NCBI RefSeq assembly: GCF_026151205.1
Contig: NC_087074.1
Span: 6,758,001-6,822,000, forward strand
Direction of reading: 5' to 3'
Origin: Bolinopsis microptera
Taxonomy: Eukaryota; Ctenophora; Tentaculata; Lobata; Bolinopsidae
Length of the DNA: 64,000 bases
Shown: positions 12,805 to 48,000 of the stretch, one piece after another
How positions within the stretch are numbered: position 1 is the stretch's first letter
Layout of the letters: each line of letters starts with the position of its first letter
Translations under genes and position numbers: made by a program
Notes under the pieces: model-generated
Database searches by the model: none
Told to the model about the DNA's origin: nothing
The model's input: only the letters and a program-made list of their open reading frames with translations

Positions 12805-15085
12805 TAAAGGCAATGATGAGTGATGTTCAAAATCTGACCATCCTCGCCCACCAACTCAATCCCAAACTCATTCTTTGCTAGTTCCTCAGCCCACTTAACC
12901 CACAGTGGTCCACCAGGCTATAATTGAACCAAAATCGAGTGTCATGAAATTCTGTTTATTTATTTGTTATTTATCATAAATTATCAGCCGGTACATATGC
13001 TGAAGACGATAATTAAAAATCTTTCAAAATGTGGAAATGATGTACGATAATATCAACGATTTTTTTACACAGTCCGAAATTCAAGCAATTAGCAGTAAAA
13101 ATTGGCCTACATCTGACTGGATATTCATAAAGCAGTCTATATATGCATTTACTTACTCTTGTTGTTGCTGTTGTACGTGTTGAATACCTGTCTAATGAAA
13201 AAAAATTCATGTTGATATCTATTTTGGTTGATTTTTCATTTACCCTCAAATTTTAGACCCACTTTTAAACTAACATTTTGGTTTTAAAATTAAAAAATGT
13301 TAGGTAGTGCGCTCGAGTGCACCTAAACCACCTATGGCATCCTAAAGTTCAGATAATTATCTAACTAGCCATAAAAAATTCAACCTGGGACAAGCTGGGA
13401 CTTTTTTTTAAATCAGCCACGCCCATATTTGGTCCCAATTATCCCATTTATGCAAAATCACCTTAACAAGCCCAAAGCCATGCTTTGGGGTGCTTTACTT
13501 GTAGCTTCTAGTCTCCTGAACACAAATATAAAGTTTTATCAAAATTTGAAAAAAATTGGTTGAGTTATGAGCAAAATACTATATGACCATATTTGGGCAT
13601 ACGCGCCAATTTTGATAGATTTTTATAGATTTTAGCCCATAAATTGGCCAATTATCAATATTTTTGGATGAGACAAATTTTATATGTTAGGTAAGTTTAT
13701 ACTTCACATTCTCTATGAATATCAGCTCAATATCTACCTAACTGTGGATTCTGTGTTCAAATAATGGCAAAAAATGAACAAAATTGCCCATAACTCAGTT
13801 CGCGACATTCGCGAAACTGATTTCGCTCAAAATAATGTAACTCAATAGGGTTTCAATATTTTTTTATGAAATTTTCAGAATCAACGTAGAATTGCCTAAG
13901 GACCTTAAGTTGTGGAGTAGAATTTTGAGTCAGGCCTTTTAAACAAATTTAGCGGCCAAATTCTAAAATTTTCAGGGTATTTTTGGAAAAAATCAATTTT
14001 TTGATTTCTCATTTTCAGCCCTTCTGGTATATTTTGAGGTCTTGTAAATGCTTTAAAACGTCTTTTTGGGCGAAAATACTCCAGAAAACATCTCCTGAGA
14101 CAACAAAATGACCTAGAAGGGGTCTATTATAGCCTGACCCCCCTTCGCGGACCACTGTGTAACCGCATCAGCATCTACATTCTACATTCATGTTTACCCC
14201 AGCCAATCTCTCCCGGTTATGACTCACAGAGTAAGCCCGAGAGTCTATCTAGGGCAGACAAAGCCTCTCCAAGGTAATCCTCCCCAAATCCCACCTTCAA
14301 TAAACTCCGAGCAAATGCCTCCTTGTTCTTCAACAGAGACTCGTAATTTAACTGTATGACCTGATATCTGTCCTGTCTTGAGTTTCAAACATATAAGCGT
14401 GGATCTGACTCAGCACTAGGAAACACCACACTTCATCACCTTAATCACGTTTTACCTTCTCCCAAATACTTCGGTAGTTTACAGGAAACTTGGATTAATA
14501 GCCCAATTCCCTGCAACTTCAAAATATTTTTCTGAGCCTACAAGCTTTTTAAACGATAGCACGGTCGGTTGAACAGAACAAAACATGAACATTTCCTTGA
14601 TTCCAGGCAAGGCTTGGTGTAGGAGAGGGAGCAGGGACAGGGTCTGAAGACCCCAAGGCTTAATGAAGTACAACTTGTCAGGATCAGGACAAAGAAGAAG
14701 AAAGGTTGCTCTGACGATCTCTAGATACTCCACGGTTTTACGACTAGCAGGGTAGTCCTCCTTGTTGAACATGAGAGCCAAGTGGAGGACTGGAGTGGAT
14801 TCTGAGAGTACCACACTCTGGTTAGTACTGAACATCATAGCTGCAACTAGAGTAGAACCACATCGTCATGGGTTATGTAAATAAGAGATGTTTTTAATAC
14901 CGTCCCTCTCTGGTTTGCTTCTTAAATACTGGAACACTGTACTGTGAGAAGCAGTCAAGACCTCCTCTGCTGCAGAATGTTGGATGTTGTAAATGAAGGG
15001 ATATTTCTCTGTGTTGAACTTGAAGATGTCCACCTCTGGTTCGGTCCTCACAAAACAAACTCATCCTCTGTAAAAATTTGTTTCT
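12805..15085 (-). pseudogene. Sulfotransferase-like pseudogene split by a transposon
   Basis: This is a reverse-strand paralogue of the intact gene at 22371-23612. It covers roughly residue 83 to the C-terminus, so the 5' part is missing. Long stretches are nearly identical to the intact copy (for example the LHLALMFNKEDYPASRKTVEYLEIV region), but the frame is broken by small indels. The P-loop-like segment corresponding to HNPGRCGSTLV is disrupted at about 14866-14880. A 1,259-bp element sits in the C-terminal coding part. Near 15080 the similarity stops within AT-rich DNA. Confidence 0.85.
12901..14159. mobile_element. Non-autonomous Transib/RAG-like element, CACAGTG ends
   Basis: Both ends read CACAGTGGTCC inward. 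They are flanked by the 5-bp direct repeat TAACC (12896-12900 and 14160-14164). Removing the element and one TAACC restores alignment with the intact sulfotransferase copy, so the boundaries are exact. A second block, CAGGCTATAAT, follows at position 14 from the left end and position 24 from the right end. The interior is AT-rich with no transposase-like ORF. CACAGTG equals the RAG recombination-signal heptamer; Transib and RAG-like transposons have CAC-ends and 5-bp target duplications. hAT (8-bp) and Tc1 (TA) do not fit. Confidence 0.75.
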
Positions 15086-22290: not shown

Positions 22291-22370
22291 TCTACTCTGT
22301 ACCCAATCGATTAAACCATTTTGCATGCTTCACAGCTAATATTTAACTTAATTTTAAGGCAAGTGTTACT

Positions 22371-23612
22371 ATGTCTATGGTTTACTGGGCAATTAAAGGT
22401 TTCCTGGACAAACTGTCAAAAATGTTACAATTCATTGTATGGCTGCTCTATGGACCTCGAAGGAAAGATCTTGTAGAAGGCAGTGTACAGGGATATGATA
22501 TCCTTGCAGATATGAAGCCTGGGTTTGCAATGATTAATGAAAAAAGCTTCTTCCTCCACAAGTTTGTTGGTTTGAAAGACGTTTCCTATTTGGATAGAGA
22601 AGACGTGACTCTTTACTCTGTTACAGAGGATGAGTTTGTATTTGTGAGGACCAAACCCGAGGTGGACATATTCAACACAGAGAAATATCCCTTCATTTAC
22701 AACATCCAACATTCTGCAGCAGAGGAGGTCTTGACTGCTTCTCACAGTACAGTGTTCCAGTATTTAAGAAGCAAACCAGAGAGGGACGGTAAAAACATCT
22801 CTTATTTACATAACCCAGGACGATGTGGTTCTACTCTAGTTGCAGCTATGATGTTCAGTACTAACCAGTGTGTGGTACTCTCAGAACCCACTCCGGTCCT
22901 CCACTTGGCTCTCATGTTCAACAAGAAGGACTACCCTGCCAGTCGTAAAACCGTGGAGTATCTAGAGATCGTCAGAGCAACCTTTCTTCTTCTTTGTCCT
23001 GATCCTGACAAGTTGTACTTCATTAAGCCTTGGGGTCTTCAGACCCTGTCCCTGCTCCCTCTCCTACACCAAGCCTTACCTGGAATCAAGGAAATGTTCA
23101 TGTTTCGTTCTGTTCAACCGACCGTGCTATCGTTTAAAAAGCTTGTAGGCTCAGAAAAATATTTTGAAGTTGCAGGGAATTGGGCTATTTCCAAGTTTCC
23201 TGTAAACTACCGAAGTATCTGGGAGAAAGTAAAACGTGGAAAAGGTGATGAAGTGTGGTGTTTCCTAGTGCTGAGTCAGATCCACGCTTACATGTTGGAA
23301 ACTCAAGATAGGACAGATATCAGGTCATACAGCTACGAGTCTCTGTTGAAGAACAAGGAGGCATTTGCTCGGAGTTTATTGAAGGAGGTGGGAGTTGGGG
23401 AGGATTATCTTGGAGAGGCTCTGTCTGCCCTATATAAAGACTCTCAGGCTAACTCAGTTACTCATAAAACGGAGAAAGTAGCTGCAGTTAAAATGAGTAT
23501 AGATGCTGATGCAATTAGGTGGGCTGAGGAAGTAGCAAGGAATAAGTTTGGGTTAGAGATGGTGGGGGATGATGGTCAGATCTCAAACATGACCCATCAA
23601 TGGTTCAAATGA
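22371..23612 (+). CDS. Sulfotransferase-like protein, single exon
   Basis: 413 residues, intact. HNPGRCGSTLVAAMMFS (residues about 147-163) fits the PAPS-binding 5'-phosphosulfate loop, and MFRSVQPTVLSFKKL (about 243-257) resembles the 3'-phosphate-binding R...S segment of sulfotransferases. The N-terminus has a modest hydrophobic stretch (LQFIVWLLYG) but no clear signal peptide. The acceptor substrate cannot be told. The first ATG is used; similarity to the pseudogene starts at residue 83, so residues 1-82 are supported only by the open frame. A decayed paralogue lies at 12805-15085 in the opposite orientation, with two LINE derivatives between. The promoter region is compressed against the TTCTC array. 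Confidence 0.72.
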   Translation: MSMVYWAIKGFLDKLSKMLQFIVWLLYGPRRKDLVEGSVQGYDILADMKPGFAMINEKSFFLHKFVGLKDVSYLDREDVTLYSVTEDEFVFVRTKPEVDIFNTEKYPFIYNIQHSAAEEVLTASHSTVFQYLRSKPERDGKNISYLHNPGRCGSTLVAAMMFSTNQCVVLSEPTPVLHLALMFNKKDYPASRKTVEYLEIVRATFLLLCPDPDKLYFIKPWGLQTLSLLPLLHQALPGIKEMFMFRSVQPTVLSFKKLVGSEKYFEVAGNWAISKFPVNYRSIWEKVKRGKGDEVWCFLVLSQIHAYMLETQDRTDIRSYSYESLLKNKEAFARSLLKEVGVGEDYLGEALSALYKDSQANSVTHKTEKVAAVKMSIDADAIRWAEEVARNKFGLEMVGDDGQISNMTHQWFK

Positions 23613-24830
23613 AGTGAATGATGCTGTGCAATAGTTTGATTGGTGCTGACAGAGCTAGAGGTTCCCTACACAGTAAAACAAAGTTATATAAGTAGTACAC
23701 AAATTAAATTTTTAATCTTTTTATAATCAAATATTTATGTTATACCTGATTTGTTATGCTTGATTTGATATAATCTTTTTAAACATGTTTTTGAGCATTG
23801 TTAAAACAATTATTAAAAAATAGTTTTTTACAATAACTGTTTGCTATATTAAAATTAATGAGGTATTTTTATGAAAATGTTGATGATCTTATTATTCTGT
23901 TTTGATGTACGATTTGATTTAAAATAGTTTAGCTTTTCAATCTATTTTGCATGTACTCATGAAAAATACAATTACAAAACTTTGAATTGTATTTTTTCTG
24001 TTTAAAATTAAAATATAGTTATATTGTAATGATTCATATTATGCAACTTTAATTGATCTCAAGCCTTGTCTAACCCCTCAATCCTTCAACCTATAATCTG
24101 CTTTCCAGTAACACCATAACAGTTTCAAGTCCCTTATACACCATGAGCAACAATAGCTACACACATACTAAAAAAATGAACATCTGCTACAGAACGATCA
24201 TTGTAACCATATGCATATAATTGTCACAACCTATCATTTAAATAGCTGATATATTATGAGGTATAAGTGTATAAGGGTATAAGTGTGCTTCAAAGTACTT
24301 CTGCATAATTACTACCCTTACAATGAAGAATTTGTGATCATGATCTTCGGTAATACTCCTGTTCGCGTTTACATTTCTTGTCCTGTTGGAATTTTAATTA
24401 CAGCTTCATAATTTCTGGTTATTTCACAGCCCACTTTCATTTGATTTTTCAAATTCTAGGTTTGTAGAATAAGAATGAGACAGAAATAATTGGGAAAGGA
24501 TTTTTGACTTGAATATGAATGCAGTTTTGAATAGGTGATTTATTATAAACATCGGTAGAACAGCATAGGATGCCATCTCCCACCCCTGCATAAAATTAAC
24601 TTTTTTTAAAAGCTCCACCCGGCCCCCATCACTCAACTCCTGCAGAGCTACTATACAAACTCACCTTTGCACTTTAAGGTTCACCTTTCACCTTTCGTCA
24701 AATTTTGTATGTTAAAATCAAATACAATCGATAATTATTGACACTTTTTATCAAAAATACATATGTATATTGAATAATAACATGATAAATTAGAGACAAT
24801 TAAACTGTTTCCTTTAGGTTATGGTTTTGC
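23613..24830. other. AT-rich intergenic DNA
   Basis: Nothing coding recognised. The right end has TTTGCAG at 24826-24832 directly before the RAB3GAP2 ATG, a plausible 3' splice site, so an untranslated or short coding exon of that gene may lie in this gap. Confidence 0.45.
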
Positions 24831-39011: not shown

Positions 39012-42000
39012 TATCGTCTCGCTTTATATATAGTAAGATTTCCCGATTTGACATTGTGAACTATACCAATAAAATAATAGGTACAACAAAATCGCCCTAA
39101 AGATGAGCCCCTAGTCTGAGTAGGGCACGATAAGCTTTCCCTTTAAGTTCAATAGATTTTTAATTTTAAGATGAGCAACTCCAATGATAACAAATACAGC
39201 AAACATAAAAGCTGCAAAGATAATGAACGTTTTTGGAAAAGAAAGTAAGTCCACTAGAGCAGATCCCATCAGAGGCCCAATAAAAGCTCCGATGAAGAAC
39301 CCTGCATTGTAAACCCCAGTCATTGCTTCAGTTGAGCGTTCCTGATCAGGCTGACCATCATGAAATACCAAGAGTGGCAAGATGCAAACTTGAATCATAG
39401 CACTCCCTACCTCGACCAATCCAAACATAATCCCTGGGTACACATAACTCGGCCATACTGCTCCAAATAATGAGACGTCTATCAGAAGTGTTCCAATAAT
39501 AAGAACAATGAATCCTAATAATGTGGTTACAGCTCGAGACAGTCCCCTATCTGTTAAGTAGCCAAATAGCATGATAGCAAACGAGTAACACACCCCACAA
39601 ACCATTAATATTGTCCCTGTTACTTCAACGGTTTTCTGATAGCTGTCCTTCATGTAAACGGCCAGGAAGTTGCCAACGAACGCCTCGTCTGCGGAAACAA
39701 AAGACATTACAACTATTCCAAGAAGAAGTATTGGCGGTCTGAGCAGAGATTTCATGCTGCTGGTGGTCTCGTTGGTCAAAGTGGTGTCTTCCTCAGATCT
39801 TTCTTTGGCACTTTCTGTTATTGCAATGATAGCTATTATGCTCATTATTTGATGAAGGGATCCTGAAGATTGAAGATGTTGTTATTTCAATTTGTTATTG
39901 TTTTCAAGAAAAAAAAATGTTAAACTTTACTCAGTTTTATACCCCATCTCTTTCTTTAGCCTATAATATATTGGCACCCAATTTGAATCGCTGAAGTATG
40001 AGAAATTAAATCTGGAGTTAAAACTCAATTTATAGAAGGTAATAAAAATTACTCTCACCCGTCACTACAAAAGGAAGATAGAATCCTCCTACATCGTAAA
40101 GGAAACCCCCCATCAAGGGTCCAAGTGCCAGGGAAGCACTGAAAGTAAGTTCATATATTGCCGTTACCATCCCGAGGGAATCTTTGTAAATTGATCCCAT
40201 GACTGCCACGACCATCGGTTCAGCTAACCCTAATGCTGCTCCTTGGATTGCTCTGGAGTATACAATCTATACTTGATCAGACACTTCCTATTAAACCTAA
40301 ACATTTTACCCAAAACTGATTTTGAAATAGGCAAATAGCCTTCAAGCTATCAATTTCATTCTATTTAGAAATGAAATGAATATTTTTATTTATTTAATTA
40401 CCTGGATATGAGGACCGATATATCAAACAAGACGTTATTGAACATGGGAATGACAAACACGATAGAGGAAAGAAAAAGGGCTACCCCACTCCACCCAACC
40501 ATCTTCTTCACAGTGGTTTTTGATGCCACAGATCCTGCTATTAGAGAGGTTACTGCGCCTACGAAAGGCAACGTCCCTGCCAAGACCCCACCAATAATAG
40601 CTCTTTGTTTGCGATTTTTTACGATCTCGTCGGTTAGGAAAGGAAGAGTGAGGCTGAAGTAGAGGTTCATCGTCAGAATAAGCAAGGAAAGTACTCCGAA
40701 TATTGCCGGTTTTTTAAATCTCTGCAGATATCTCAATGGAGCCGTTGGTTTGTCGGATTCTTCTATGATCATGTCTTCCATGTCTGAATCTGGAAATTAT
40801 GTGACTGAATAATAATATTATATTATAGTTTATAGATATTAGATGTGGATACTGGCGGGGAGGTGACAATTGTATGTTTACGTTTTAGGTGGCGCCTCTA
40901 TTCAGCAGGTTGTAGAGGAGAAGAGGTGATAATTGTTTGTTTACGTTTTAGGTGGCGCTTCTATTCAGCAGGTCGAAGATGTGATGAAAATTTTGTATTA
41001 TCGAAGGCTTGTAACCCTTGTAAATCCTTCTTGATACCCCCTCCTTCTTGTTACCCCCCCCCCCCCCCCCCCCCCCCCTTTGAAGGTCCCGAATTATTTT
41101 CAGAACGAAAGCTCAAAAATAACCGAGAAATCGACCTTCTTATTAACTCATTTTGATGACTGTTTCTGACCTTAAATTTAAAATAGCTTAAAATAGCTTA
41201 AAATATGGAGAAAAGTAGTTTTTAGAAAAACTTATTTTCGAAAATTCAAAATATTTTGTTCGCAAGTGAATTGCATGAAACGTGAAGAAAAATGCTTTTC
41301 AAAAAACTCCGTGAATTTTTCGTTTCAAGAATACTAAAATCACCAATATTTGTAGGCGGAGTTCAGTCAATCTCGGCAGATTTTAGTAGTCAGGAATTAC
41401 TCTGTGGAAAGGTCTGAAACTGAAAAACGTTAACCACACGATATTAGAGTTTCATAACTAATTACAGTAACTTAGCCTTATCGATTTTCACAGAAACTGC
41501 ACCGAAGGCACAGTCAAGATCGAACCGATAGCCTGCAGCTGTACTATCATTTTATTGATGAATCAGTCACTTCAGTAGGGTGAAGATAATCACATTTGTA
41601 ATAAATAAAACCTCTCTGTACCGTCAATTGTGCAAATCTAAACCGGCCTAGCTGGATTACCAGACCTATTCTTTTCCTCAACAATCAAACCGAGTTGTGC
41701 AAGAAATGTGATTTATCATAGTTCATATCGCAGCCAAACAACAAATTTAGGCACATTTTTCGTTTTTCATATTTACTGATTTTTCTAAAATGTTGATAGG
41801 AATGTGCTAGTGAAGTAGGGATTTGGCTGCAGGACTGGAATCGGTCAGATATCAATCAATCTTCCTTTTCTTAAGACCGGAACCAAGTGGCAAACAGGAG
41901 AATTAAAATCTTACTGAAAAATTTTAAGATTTCCGACCGCTTGGTGCTAAATCTCAGAAAATTTAAAAATTGTATCCTAACAGTTTTGAAATTTCCGATT

Positions 42001-45000: not shown

Positions 45001-48000
45001 ACTTTTACCACTTTTTACCACTTTTCTTGTTTGTCAAATATCTTTAGTTGTGAACATTGTAGAACTGTAGAAGGTAAAAGGTTACAGATTAATCGAGGGT
45101 GTTTATCTTATCAGGTAATTGGGATAATTACCAATTAGCAAAAAGATACATCTTTCATATCACTCATCTACGGTACGGTTCCAAAGCAGATTAGTTGTGT
45201 GTCCGTATCAGATGACGGGATGATGTAACAGCACTATAGGCCGTGAGGCCGTCCAGGTGTTAAAAAATAAATGTCGCCCTTATCTCGGGAATTCCTGATT
45301 TCTGTTTTTTTATTTTCTATTTTTTTATTGAAATTAATCATTGAAGGAACTTTAAAAGTTTATTATAATCGTTAGTTATAGTACCTTAAGAACGACGAAT
45401 TTAGTCTACCATAAATTTAGTCAAACTTTTGACTAAAATTGTTGTAAACCAAATTTATTGAGTCTAATTTAAAAGCAGACTAAAATCTCAGTAGATCATA
45501 TTATATGGATTTGCGTATTATAATTCGACAATTTAAGTTCGCCAGATATCACCCCTAGCCTGTCGAACTTCGGTACGTGTCGAACTTCGGTACGTGTCGA
45601 ACTAGAGTCCAGGTAGCGTACTCTAGTTCGACAAATAATTGCTGCTTGTAATCCAACAGCTATTGCCGGGTCCTCATCATACTATCATGTAGGATCACAG
45701 GGTTCAATGGCAGATAACAAAAATTTTCTGACATCTAGCAACCAGCGGTTAGAAATTCCAGAACTTTTTAGTATAGTTTTAATTTTTCTGTTTGCCACTC
45801 GGTTCCAAGGTCAAAAGGAAATCGCCGCACATGTGGAATCGTGATTTTTCCCATTCTCCGCGACAAATCGCGATTTTTGACGTTTGCCGCGACAAATCGC
45901 GATATTTTTTCAATTCTCCGCGACAAATTGTGCATTTTTATTTAATTCTGAGGACCAAATTTGCGCATTCTCCTTTAAATCCGAAGGCCAAATATCACGT
46001 TATTTATAAAGTTAAAAGTATATGGAACCAATCACAATCAGGGTAGCATGAAACATGAACAAAAGTAGTTTCCAGAAAAAATTTGAAAAAATTTCGACTT
46101 AGAAAATGTTCGGCCAGAGTCATTCTCGATAGGTACTTCGATGGCAGAGCTCCTGCTTCCGAGCTCGTATTGCAAAGGCTTTCAGCCAGCCTTCCGAGAT
46201 CGCATTATAATAATACGTATGTGATGTAAAATGTGTTAGGCATAAGGTTAGTTAGCAGGTAATCTATTCAGTGAGACTTGGGACAATGAGAACATTGGAC
46301 TACTTGTCCCAGAACCACGCGATTTTGCCTAGTTTGGCTTGTCGCGGCGCCGCGATTTTTGGCCTAAATAATCGCGATTTTCTTTTGTCCTTGGACTCGG
46401 TTCTGGTTAAGCTGACAGGAAAATAGATTGATATCCGACTGTTTCCGGTTCTAGACCGGTACTCGGTTTCTAGTCGTTTGTGATAATATAAAGTGTCATG
46501 TGGTAAGTGGTAGATATTTATATAGCGTACGAGTCTGCAATCTAGATCTATAAAACGGAGTACGGGTTGCCACGATAGTCATTTATCTCTCCGCTAAGTC
46601 TACAATTCTGCTAACTAACAATTGAGTTGGAGGTCAATTAAATGTTCATAGATATGGATTATCTAATACATAATATTTGAACAGCATGAGACAAGTGGAA
46701 AACAAACAAACGAATAGATTTCAAGCTCGTAAAGAATCGTTGCTTGAGATCGGAGATTTCAAAACTCTAGTTCGACAGTCGAAGTTATCTTGTCGAACTT
46801 TAGTACGTGTCGAACTTGAGTCCAGGTAGCGCACCAGGGGTGAGATAGTTAGGGTAACCAGGGTGAGTTAGCTGGGGACTGGCGTTATCATGGGTAACCA
46901 GGGGTAATCAGGAGTAAGTTAGCTTGGGTTACCAGGGGTAAGTTAGCTTCCTGGCTAGTAACTAGACTCACGAAATTATTGTCATTAATATCCCCATCAC
47001 GATAATCTTTTTGTTTGATTAGTTTCATGAAAACATTTTGTTAAAAGTAAACATTTTATAAAACTTACATCTTACATAAATACTTTTATTGGAAAATATA
47101 TTTTGATTCGTCACATAAATATCTTTGTCTAAAGTGTCCGGTACGCGTAGTCAGAGTACGGTTCGATTATGAGATTTCCCTTCATGTTCAATAGATTTTT
47201 CATTTTTAGATTTGCAATTTCAATAATAACAAATACAGCAAACATAACAGCTGCAAAGATAATGAACGTTTTTGGAAAAGAAAGTAAGTCCACTAGAGCA
47301 GATCCCACCAGAGGCCCAATAAAAGCTCCGATGAAGAACCCTGCATTGTAAACCCCAGTCATTGCTTCAGTTGAGCGTTCCTGATCAGGCTGACCATCAT
47401 GAAATACCAAGAGTGGCAAGATGCAAACTTGAATCATAGCACTTCCTACCTCGACCAATCCAAACATAATCCCTGGGTACACATAACTCGGCCATACTGC
47501 TCCAAATAATGAGACGTCTATCAGAAGTGTTCCAATAATAAGAACAATGAATCCTAATAATGTGGTTACAGCTCGAGACAGTCCCCTATCTGTTAAATAG
47601 CCAAATAGCATGATAGCAAACGAGTAACACACCCCACAAACCATTAAAATTGTCCCTGTTACTTCAACGGTTTTCTGATAGCTGTCCTTCATGTAAACGG
47701 CCAGGAAGTTGCCAATGAACGCCTCGTCTGCGGCAACAAAAGACATTACAACTATTCCAAGAAGAAGTATTGGCAGTCTGAGCAGAGATTTCATTCTGCT
47801 GGTGGTCTCGTTCGCGTTAGTCAAAGTGGTGTCTTCCTCAGATCTTTCTTTGGCACTTTTTGTTATTGCAATGATAGCTATTATGCTCATTATTAAATGA
47901 AGCGACCCTGAAGATTGAAGATGTTGTTATTTCAATTTTCTTTAAAGAAAAAAAATTGTTCAACTTTACTCAGTTTTATACCCCATCTCTTTCTTTAGCC

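Follow-up and report, generated by a model that had tools for sequence, protein, structure and literature searches.

The window analysed here, 64,000 nt of the lobate ctenophore Bolinopsis microptera (contig NC_087074.1, positions 6,758,001 to 6,822,000), carries what is very probably a non-autonomous, MITE-like Transib transposon, moved by cut and paste and mobilised in trans by a RAG1-like DDE transposase. Both ends of the element begin with CACAGTGGTCC and share a second block, CAGGCTATAAT(T/A)G, which is separated from the heptamer by 6 bp in the left end and by 16 bp in the right. The same 10 bp difference recurs in other copies of the family to which the element belongs (family A), and in three related families (B–D) that were found by searching the 264.65-Mb genome.

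The features of the element are given in Table 1. The initial annotation had described an insertion with exact ends and a duplicated TAACC at these coordinates, and this is confirmed by the empty site in a paralogue of the interrupted gene. When the flanks of the element are fused with a single target site duplication (TSD), they align with the paralogous region (22347–23800) at 92% (920 of 1005 columns), and the alignment crosses the insertion point. The name sulfotransferase, also given to the interrupted gene, is not confirmed: Pfam returned no sulfotransferase match for the paralogue, and the label goes back to a P-loop-like motif recognised by eye. The consensus of family A carries no ORF of 100 aa or longer.

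Table 1. Positions in the window of the family A element, its ends and its target site, with the evidence for each feature.
Feature	Position	Strand	Evidence
Left target-site duplication TAACC	12896–12900		Exact repeat of 14160–14164; empty site in paralogue
Family A non-autonomous Transib element (probable), 1259 bp	12901–14159	+	At least 15 related genome places; exact 5-bp TSD in 13/13 with both edges
Short end: heptamer CACAGTG	12901–12907	+	11/11 copies with both termini intact; also families B–D
Short end: 6-bp spacer GTCCAC	12908–12913	+	Same length in families B–D
Short end: box CAGGCTATAATTG	12914–12926	+	12/13 letters identical to long-end box
Short end only: A-rich tract AAAATCGAG, nonamer-like	12931–12939	+	No long-end counterpart
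Interior common to palindromic family with ends at TTAA	13414–13988		About 84–88% identity to L016–L030, consensus 514–1088
Long end: box CAGGCTATAATAG	14124–14136	-	Common to short end
Long end: 16-bp spacer GTCCGCGAAGGGGGGT	14137–14152	-	Same length in families B–D
Long end: heptamer CACAGTG	14153–14159	-	Sequence and genome pattern search
Right target-site duplication TAACC	14160–14164		Exact repeat of left; empty site
Paralogue of interrupted gene, stop-to-stop frame, 421 aa	22347–23612	+	Supplies empty site

Two other features of the window were noted. Between 15688 and 20915, on the minus strand, reverse-transcriptase ORFs lie beside an ORF whose match to GDSL lipase is weak and below the cut-off, and this region is probably a non-LTR retrotransposon adjoining the interrupted gene. 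Two highly similar minus-strand ORFs at 39111–39881 and 47129–47926, the first of them a Pfam MFS_1 match, are probably the result of a local duplication.

A whole-genome DNA search, in which 40 of 1257 candidates were scored, placed family A at 15 or more sites. The 15 copies compared diverge from their consensus by 1.0–4.0%, and the family therefore appears to have moved fairly recently. Both edges are present in 13 copies, and in each of these the 5-bp TSD is exact (TAACC, TATTC, CGCAC, CACAC, CCCCC, GAGAA, ATTGA, CACTA, GACAG, CGCCA, TACTA, ACTCG and ACAGC), of which CCCCC is uninformative because it lies inside a C run; L013 and L015 are truncated copies. The same search also yielded a second family, similar to the element in the interior alone. 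This interior (13414–13988) resembles a palindromic (foldback) family of about 1.36 kb (L016–L030), which has a G-run and TTCACCCTGA at its ends and is bounded by TTAA. Either one family captured the shared segment from the other, or both acquired it from a third source.

The heptamer CACAGTG is present on both ends in 12 of the 13 family A copies with both edges. In every one of the 11 copies with intact termini, a short end (CACAGTG, 6 bp, CAGGCTATAATTG) is combined with a long end (CACAGTG, 16 bp, CAGGCTATAATAG), so that the unequal spacing noticed in the window element is a recurrent property of the family; in copy L011 one letter of the long-end spacer is changed and the length is unchanged. 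Copy L014, one of the 12, retains the heptamer at its short end, but its box is cut through; its TSD (ACAGC) is exact. The exception among the 13 is L010, in which the first 10 bp of the short end are absent, and the element begins at an internal CAC that is flush with the TSD CGCCA (L010 1501). These two copies may have moved with broken short ends, or may have lost bases after insertion; the loss in L010 would be explained either by cleavage one helical turn inside the end or by a 3-bp microhomology deletion.

The ends were also located by pattern search. The family A pattern, CACAGTGGN{0,30}GGCTATAAT, which allows 0 to 30 bases between CACAGTGG and GGCTATAAT, has 29 matches in the genome. 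Short ends of 24 nt account for 13 and long ends of 34 nt for 14; the remaining two measure 33 nt, in L015 (truncated), and 43 nt, in a relic. The locus at C6:12890840 (L064) is classed as a relic. An indel confined to a single copy is ruled out as the source of the offset by the 11 intact copies and by these 29 matches. Chance is ruled out as the origin of the gapped end patterns, as those for family A, for families B and C, and for family D have 29, 116 and 14 matches, compared with 0, 2 and 0 in the reversed controls.

Families B, C and D keep the heptamer CACAGTG and the 6/16 spacers. Family B includes an autonomous element of 3927 bp (L066 3663–7589) on the same contig as the window, with the TSD TATCT, the short end CACAGTGGGCTACCATGCTAGCATAG and the long end CACAGTGGGCTGCGCGGGGGGGTCATGCTAGCATAG. 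Its first 498 bp, whole or in part, are matched at 90–99% in no fewer than 39 other places (with 40 of the 64 candidates scored), and the six family B places that were examined are all miniatures of about 1.1 kb with exact 5-bp TSDs. The pattern for families B and C was CACAGTGGGCN{0,30}ATGNTAG, and 99 of its 116 matches were typed, with one repeated end dropped. They comprise 43 ends of 21 nt, 44 of 31 nt, nine long ends of family D and three chance-like matches. When convergent neighbours within 6 kb are taken as pairs, all 37 pairs combine a 21-nt end with a 31-nt end, 32 of them with box B (including the autonomous element) and five with box C. A short-end variant, GGCTGG GATGCTAG, occurs in six of the B pairs; its length is unchanged, and its first box letter is unlike that of the long end. 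The unpaired ends make up 25 of the 99, and include two same-strand ends in the family C element L065.

The box D pattern identified seven short ends (26 nt) and seven long ends, the latter of 36 nt (five), 35 nt (one) and 30 nt (one). Five convergent pairs were recognised by eye, four with an offset of 10 bp and one with an offset of 4 bp. The TSDs are exact in all five C pairs and in four of the five D pairs, the fifth (TGATA/TGACA) matching at four of five letters; the D pair with the 4-bp offset was probably damaged later, because its TSD is imperfect. A 7.4-kb D pair (L093) was considered as a possible autonomous copy and rejected. It is a family D element with an exact TSD (TGGCT), split near position 381 by other DNA that carries ORFs of 535 and 1234 aa, reverse-transcriptase-like by eye.

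Across the four families, 53 convergent pairs were counted, 11 in A, 37 in B and C together and five in D. In 52 of them the spacers differ by exactly 10 bp, and each of the 53 consists of one short and one long end; there are no pairs of like, equally spaced ends. The 5-bp TSD claimed for the window element also holds throughout families A–D, being exact in 29 of the 30 copies read, with the thirtieth agreeing at four of five letters. For 29 target duplications of families A–D the G+C content is 54%; the 4-kb slices of the window range from 35 to 47%.

In families B, C and D both ends carry the same 13-nt box; in family A the boxes of the two ends are one letter apart. Between families the boxes are 1–6 letters apart; those of A and D have only 1–2 mismatches and are so alike that coupling from end to end is not distinguishable between these two families. 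Of the 12 distinguishing letters of the long spacer, up to seven are changed between families (those of A and C are the same), and the length is constant. The box therefore tracks within each element, and the spacing is held. A third block occurs in short ends only, and reads AAAATCGA(C/G) in families A, B and C and AAAAATGAG at the same place in family D.

The V(D)J recombination signal sequence (RSS) has the same consensus heptamer, CACAGTG, and an offset that is likewise near one helical turn (11 bp in the RSS, 10 bp here). Unlike the RSS, the ctenophore ends have no nonamer at 12 and 23 bp, and their 6/16-bp spacers lead to a different block. The RSS nonamer is ACAAAAACC, and the best matches to it are 6–7 of 9 letters in the short ends, at 20–21 bp, and at most 5 of 9 in the long ends. 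The initial description of the ends as RSS-like is thus accurate for the heptamer, but the box is not a nonamer, and the A-rich tract is found in the short end only, about 20–21 bp from the heptamer. The spacing had been reported as 12/22, because it was measured to the ATAAT motif; the 10-bp difference is constant, but the distances to the start of the repeated box are 6 and 16 bp.

The 10-bp offset is reasonably likely to be functionally required. A fixed offset together with matched boxes would be expected if one protein reads both boxes and the offset matters, but common descent could also fix the offset. Since the copies presumably share a founder, and families A–D are related, it could be inherited without being required. 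The element would then be a Transib with the spacing of its founder, in which the heptamer with a few adjoining bases is all that the enzyme needs, and the additional 10 bp drift along. This explanation disputes the role of the offset and leaves the identity of the element untouched. It is consistent with the exact TSDs of L010 and L014 despite their damaged short ends, and with the proposal in Martin et al. 2020 (PMC7204232) that the proteins of invertebrate RAG-like (RAGL) elements depend mainly on about 15–17 terminal bp and are rather insensitive to asymmetry of the terminal inverted repeats (TIRs). Inheritance without a role is nevertheless rather doubtful, as the offset has been kept almost without exception although the long spacer contains a slippage-prone G run, the letters of that spacer have changed between families at constant length, and the box has changed between families yet remained matched across the ends. 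In addition, the ProtoRAG transposon is described as dependent on spacer length and as favouring unlike ends (PMC8289069).

RAG1-like genes are present in the genome. The Pfam RAG1 profile (PF12940) scored above its cut-off at two loci, the sole two candidates for transposase genes as counted by the Pfam genome search. They are P0001, the protein of the family B autonomous element (NCBI LOC134813500, Bolinopsis microptera), and the ORF of the family C element L065. The latter matches 6pqn (E 1.3e-18), 6b40 RAG1L (1.9e-16) and RAG1 chains (6.5e-10 and weaker). The search answer names 6pqn as a DNA-mediated transposase, which we take to be HzTransib, and 6b40 RAG1L is presumably the amphioxus protein. 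P0001 carries the acidic residues D199, D301 and E563. In the alignments of the L065 ORF, 6b40 lines up at all three of these positions, 6pqn at the first and third, and RAG1 at the second and third; they are the positions of the catalytic acids of RAG1. The tail of P0001, CKHCDMRGHSRRWC, fits Cx2Cx3GHx4C and is thus of the CTT1 type. This motif is described in PMC7204232 for the CTT* tail of RAG1L proteins; PMC9435367 renames the tail CTT1 and reports it in RAG1L and in Subgroup I Transibs.

Both transposases were compared by tblastn with the 95 loci examined, and matched only L060, L061, L065 and L066, which represent two genome places. A RAG1-like transposase is found between ends of this type in family B (L066) and, rearranged, in family C (L065), whereas an autonomous element with the family A box was not found among these 95 loci. 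L062 and L063 share just the first 270–285 bp with family A, and L062 then enters an N stretch. The Transib or RAG-like identity suggested in the initial annotation is supported, since the autonomous family B relative has like termini and encodes a RAG1-like transposase.

The RAG1-like transposase, its CTT1-type tail and the lack of a RAG2-size gene in the family B element together lead to classification as a Transib. Within L066 3663–7589 there is no second gene of RAG2 size: beside the two frames of the transposase, those of at least 80 aa are of just 119 and 84 aa. The RAG2 profile (PF03089) had no matches in the genome, but its control also matched nowhere, so that this result carries no weight. 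A phylogenetic tree separates RAG1 and RAG1L from the 6pqn chain and the comb-jelly proteins (100/100), although it was built with pieces of three reference chains, 6pqn and RAG1 lie on long branches and are under half filled, and 8 of the 19 inner branches are open. RAGL elements also have the Cx2Cx3GHx4C tail and asymmetric TIRs, so that a RAGL family with both RAG1L and RAG2L might be considered in place of a Transib; this is very improbable, and was rejected because the 3927-bp autonomous element has no RAG2-size gene and the transposase falls outside the RAG1 and RAG1L branch. CAC termini are not specific to one transposon superfamily, but the chance that the element belongs to a different superfamily whose termini read CAC or CAG (CACTA/Chapaev, hAT or PIF/Harbinger) is negligible, given the 5-bp TSDs of the copies read and the RAG1-like transposase of family B.

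The features of a Transib that are found here are the 5-bp TSD, heptamers starting with CAC, a RAG1-like DDE transposase (families B and C) and an element free of any RAG2-like gene. More specifically, the element resembles a Subgroup I Transib (Tao et al. 2022; PMC9435367), although the tree only splits the Transib-side proteins from RAG1 and RAG1L. According to the main text of that paper, all Subgroup I Transibs have asymmetric TIRs, and they share with the comb-jelly families a RAG1-like transposase without RAG2L and the CTT1 tail; here, TIRs are asymmetric in all 53 convergent pairs and the tail is found in P0001. The main text of PMC9435367 does not assign the ctenophore proteins to a subgroup. 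As that paper had already described a Transib subgroup with asymmetric TIRs, the pattern is less surprising than the initial annotation held. Six Transib-like proteins in ctenophores are also recorded there, and the tree legend names Mnemiopsis leidyi and Pleurobrachia bachei. Transibs in ctenophores are therefore already known, and the detail of the one-turn offset may be new; in the parts of the literature consulted no statement of such an offset in ctenophores was met, and the TIR figure of PMC9435367 may show one.

Unequal ends are known from several related systems. Insect Transibs with 12/23-like termini include Drosophila Transib5 and Anopheles Transib2 and N1–N3 (Kapitonov and Jurka 2005, as cited in PMC8355894). 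They have the CAC heptamer and unequal ends in common with the comb-jelly families, but their second block is an RSS-like nonamer, in contrast to the box at 6/16 bp and the A-rich tract confined to the short end (PMC8355894). AanRAGL of Aureococcus has asymmetric TIRs, two shared blocks with 4/13-bp spacers and a 5-bp TSD, but differs in carrying RAG2L and in its offset of 9 bp (PMC9435367). ProtoRAG of amphioxus combines a heptamer with a second block at unequal spacers of 27/31 (PMC8289069), and 5 bp is its predominant TSD length (PMC7204232), whereas it has RAG2L and an offset of 4 bp (PMC8289069).

The following mechanism is proposed. Family A is very probably moved in trans by a transposase of the kind encoded by the family B autonomous element, presumably that enzyme or a close relative. 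The transposase would read the heptamer at the cut, and a second DNA-binding region would read the box. The synaptic complex would hold one end of each kind, with like ends pairing poorly, and the extra 10 bp, about one helical turn, would set the box one turn further out without changing the face of the helix on which it lies. Cleavage would leave hairpinned flanks, as is known for Transib and RAG, and the ends would insert with a 5-bp stagger. That a comb-jelly RAG1-type transposase, without RAG2, enforces the pairing of unlike ends whose boxes are exactly one helical turn apart is put forward tentatively, as a possibility that could well turn out otherwise. If true, it would mean that an animal lineage among the earliest to branch has a functioning counterpart of the 12/23 rule, independent of RAG2 and of antigen receptors. 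The 12/23 rule governs which antigen-receptor segments join. The observations suggest that the pairing of unlike ends matters in this old branch as well. The four families, with their common heptamer, co-varying box, 10-bp offset and RAG2-less transposase, provide natural variants for testing such pairing, and with them it can be asked whether it is intrinsic to the RAG1-type enzyme.

The autonomous element of family C (L065 4886–8756) has an unusual structure. Its body is inverted over the part that reaches from the long end to near codon 600 of the transposase gene, and ATATG is found at each of its outer edges. The long end lies directly against TGTGG within the transposase gene of the element itself, and the inverted piece terminates in TGTG from this site, adjoining bases that could be palindromic. 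By eye, the element sits in C2H2 zinc-finger-like repeats. Self-integration is an accident expected of cut-and-paste transposases, and L065 is tentatively regarded as one case of it, in which the long end attacked its own element.
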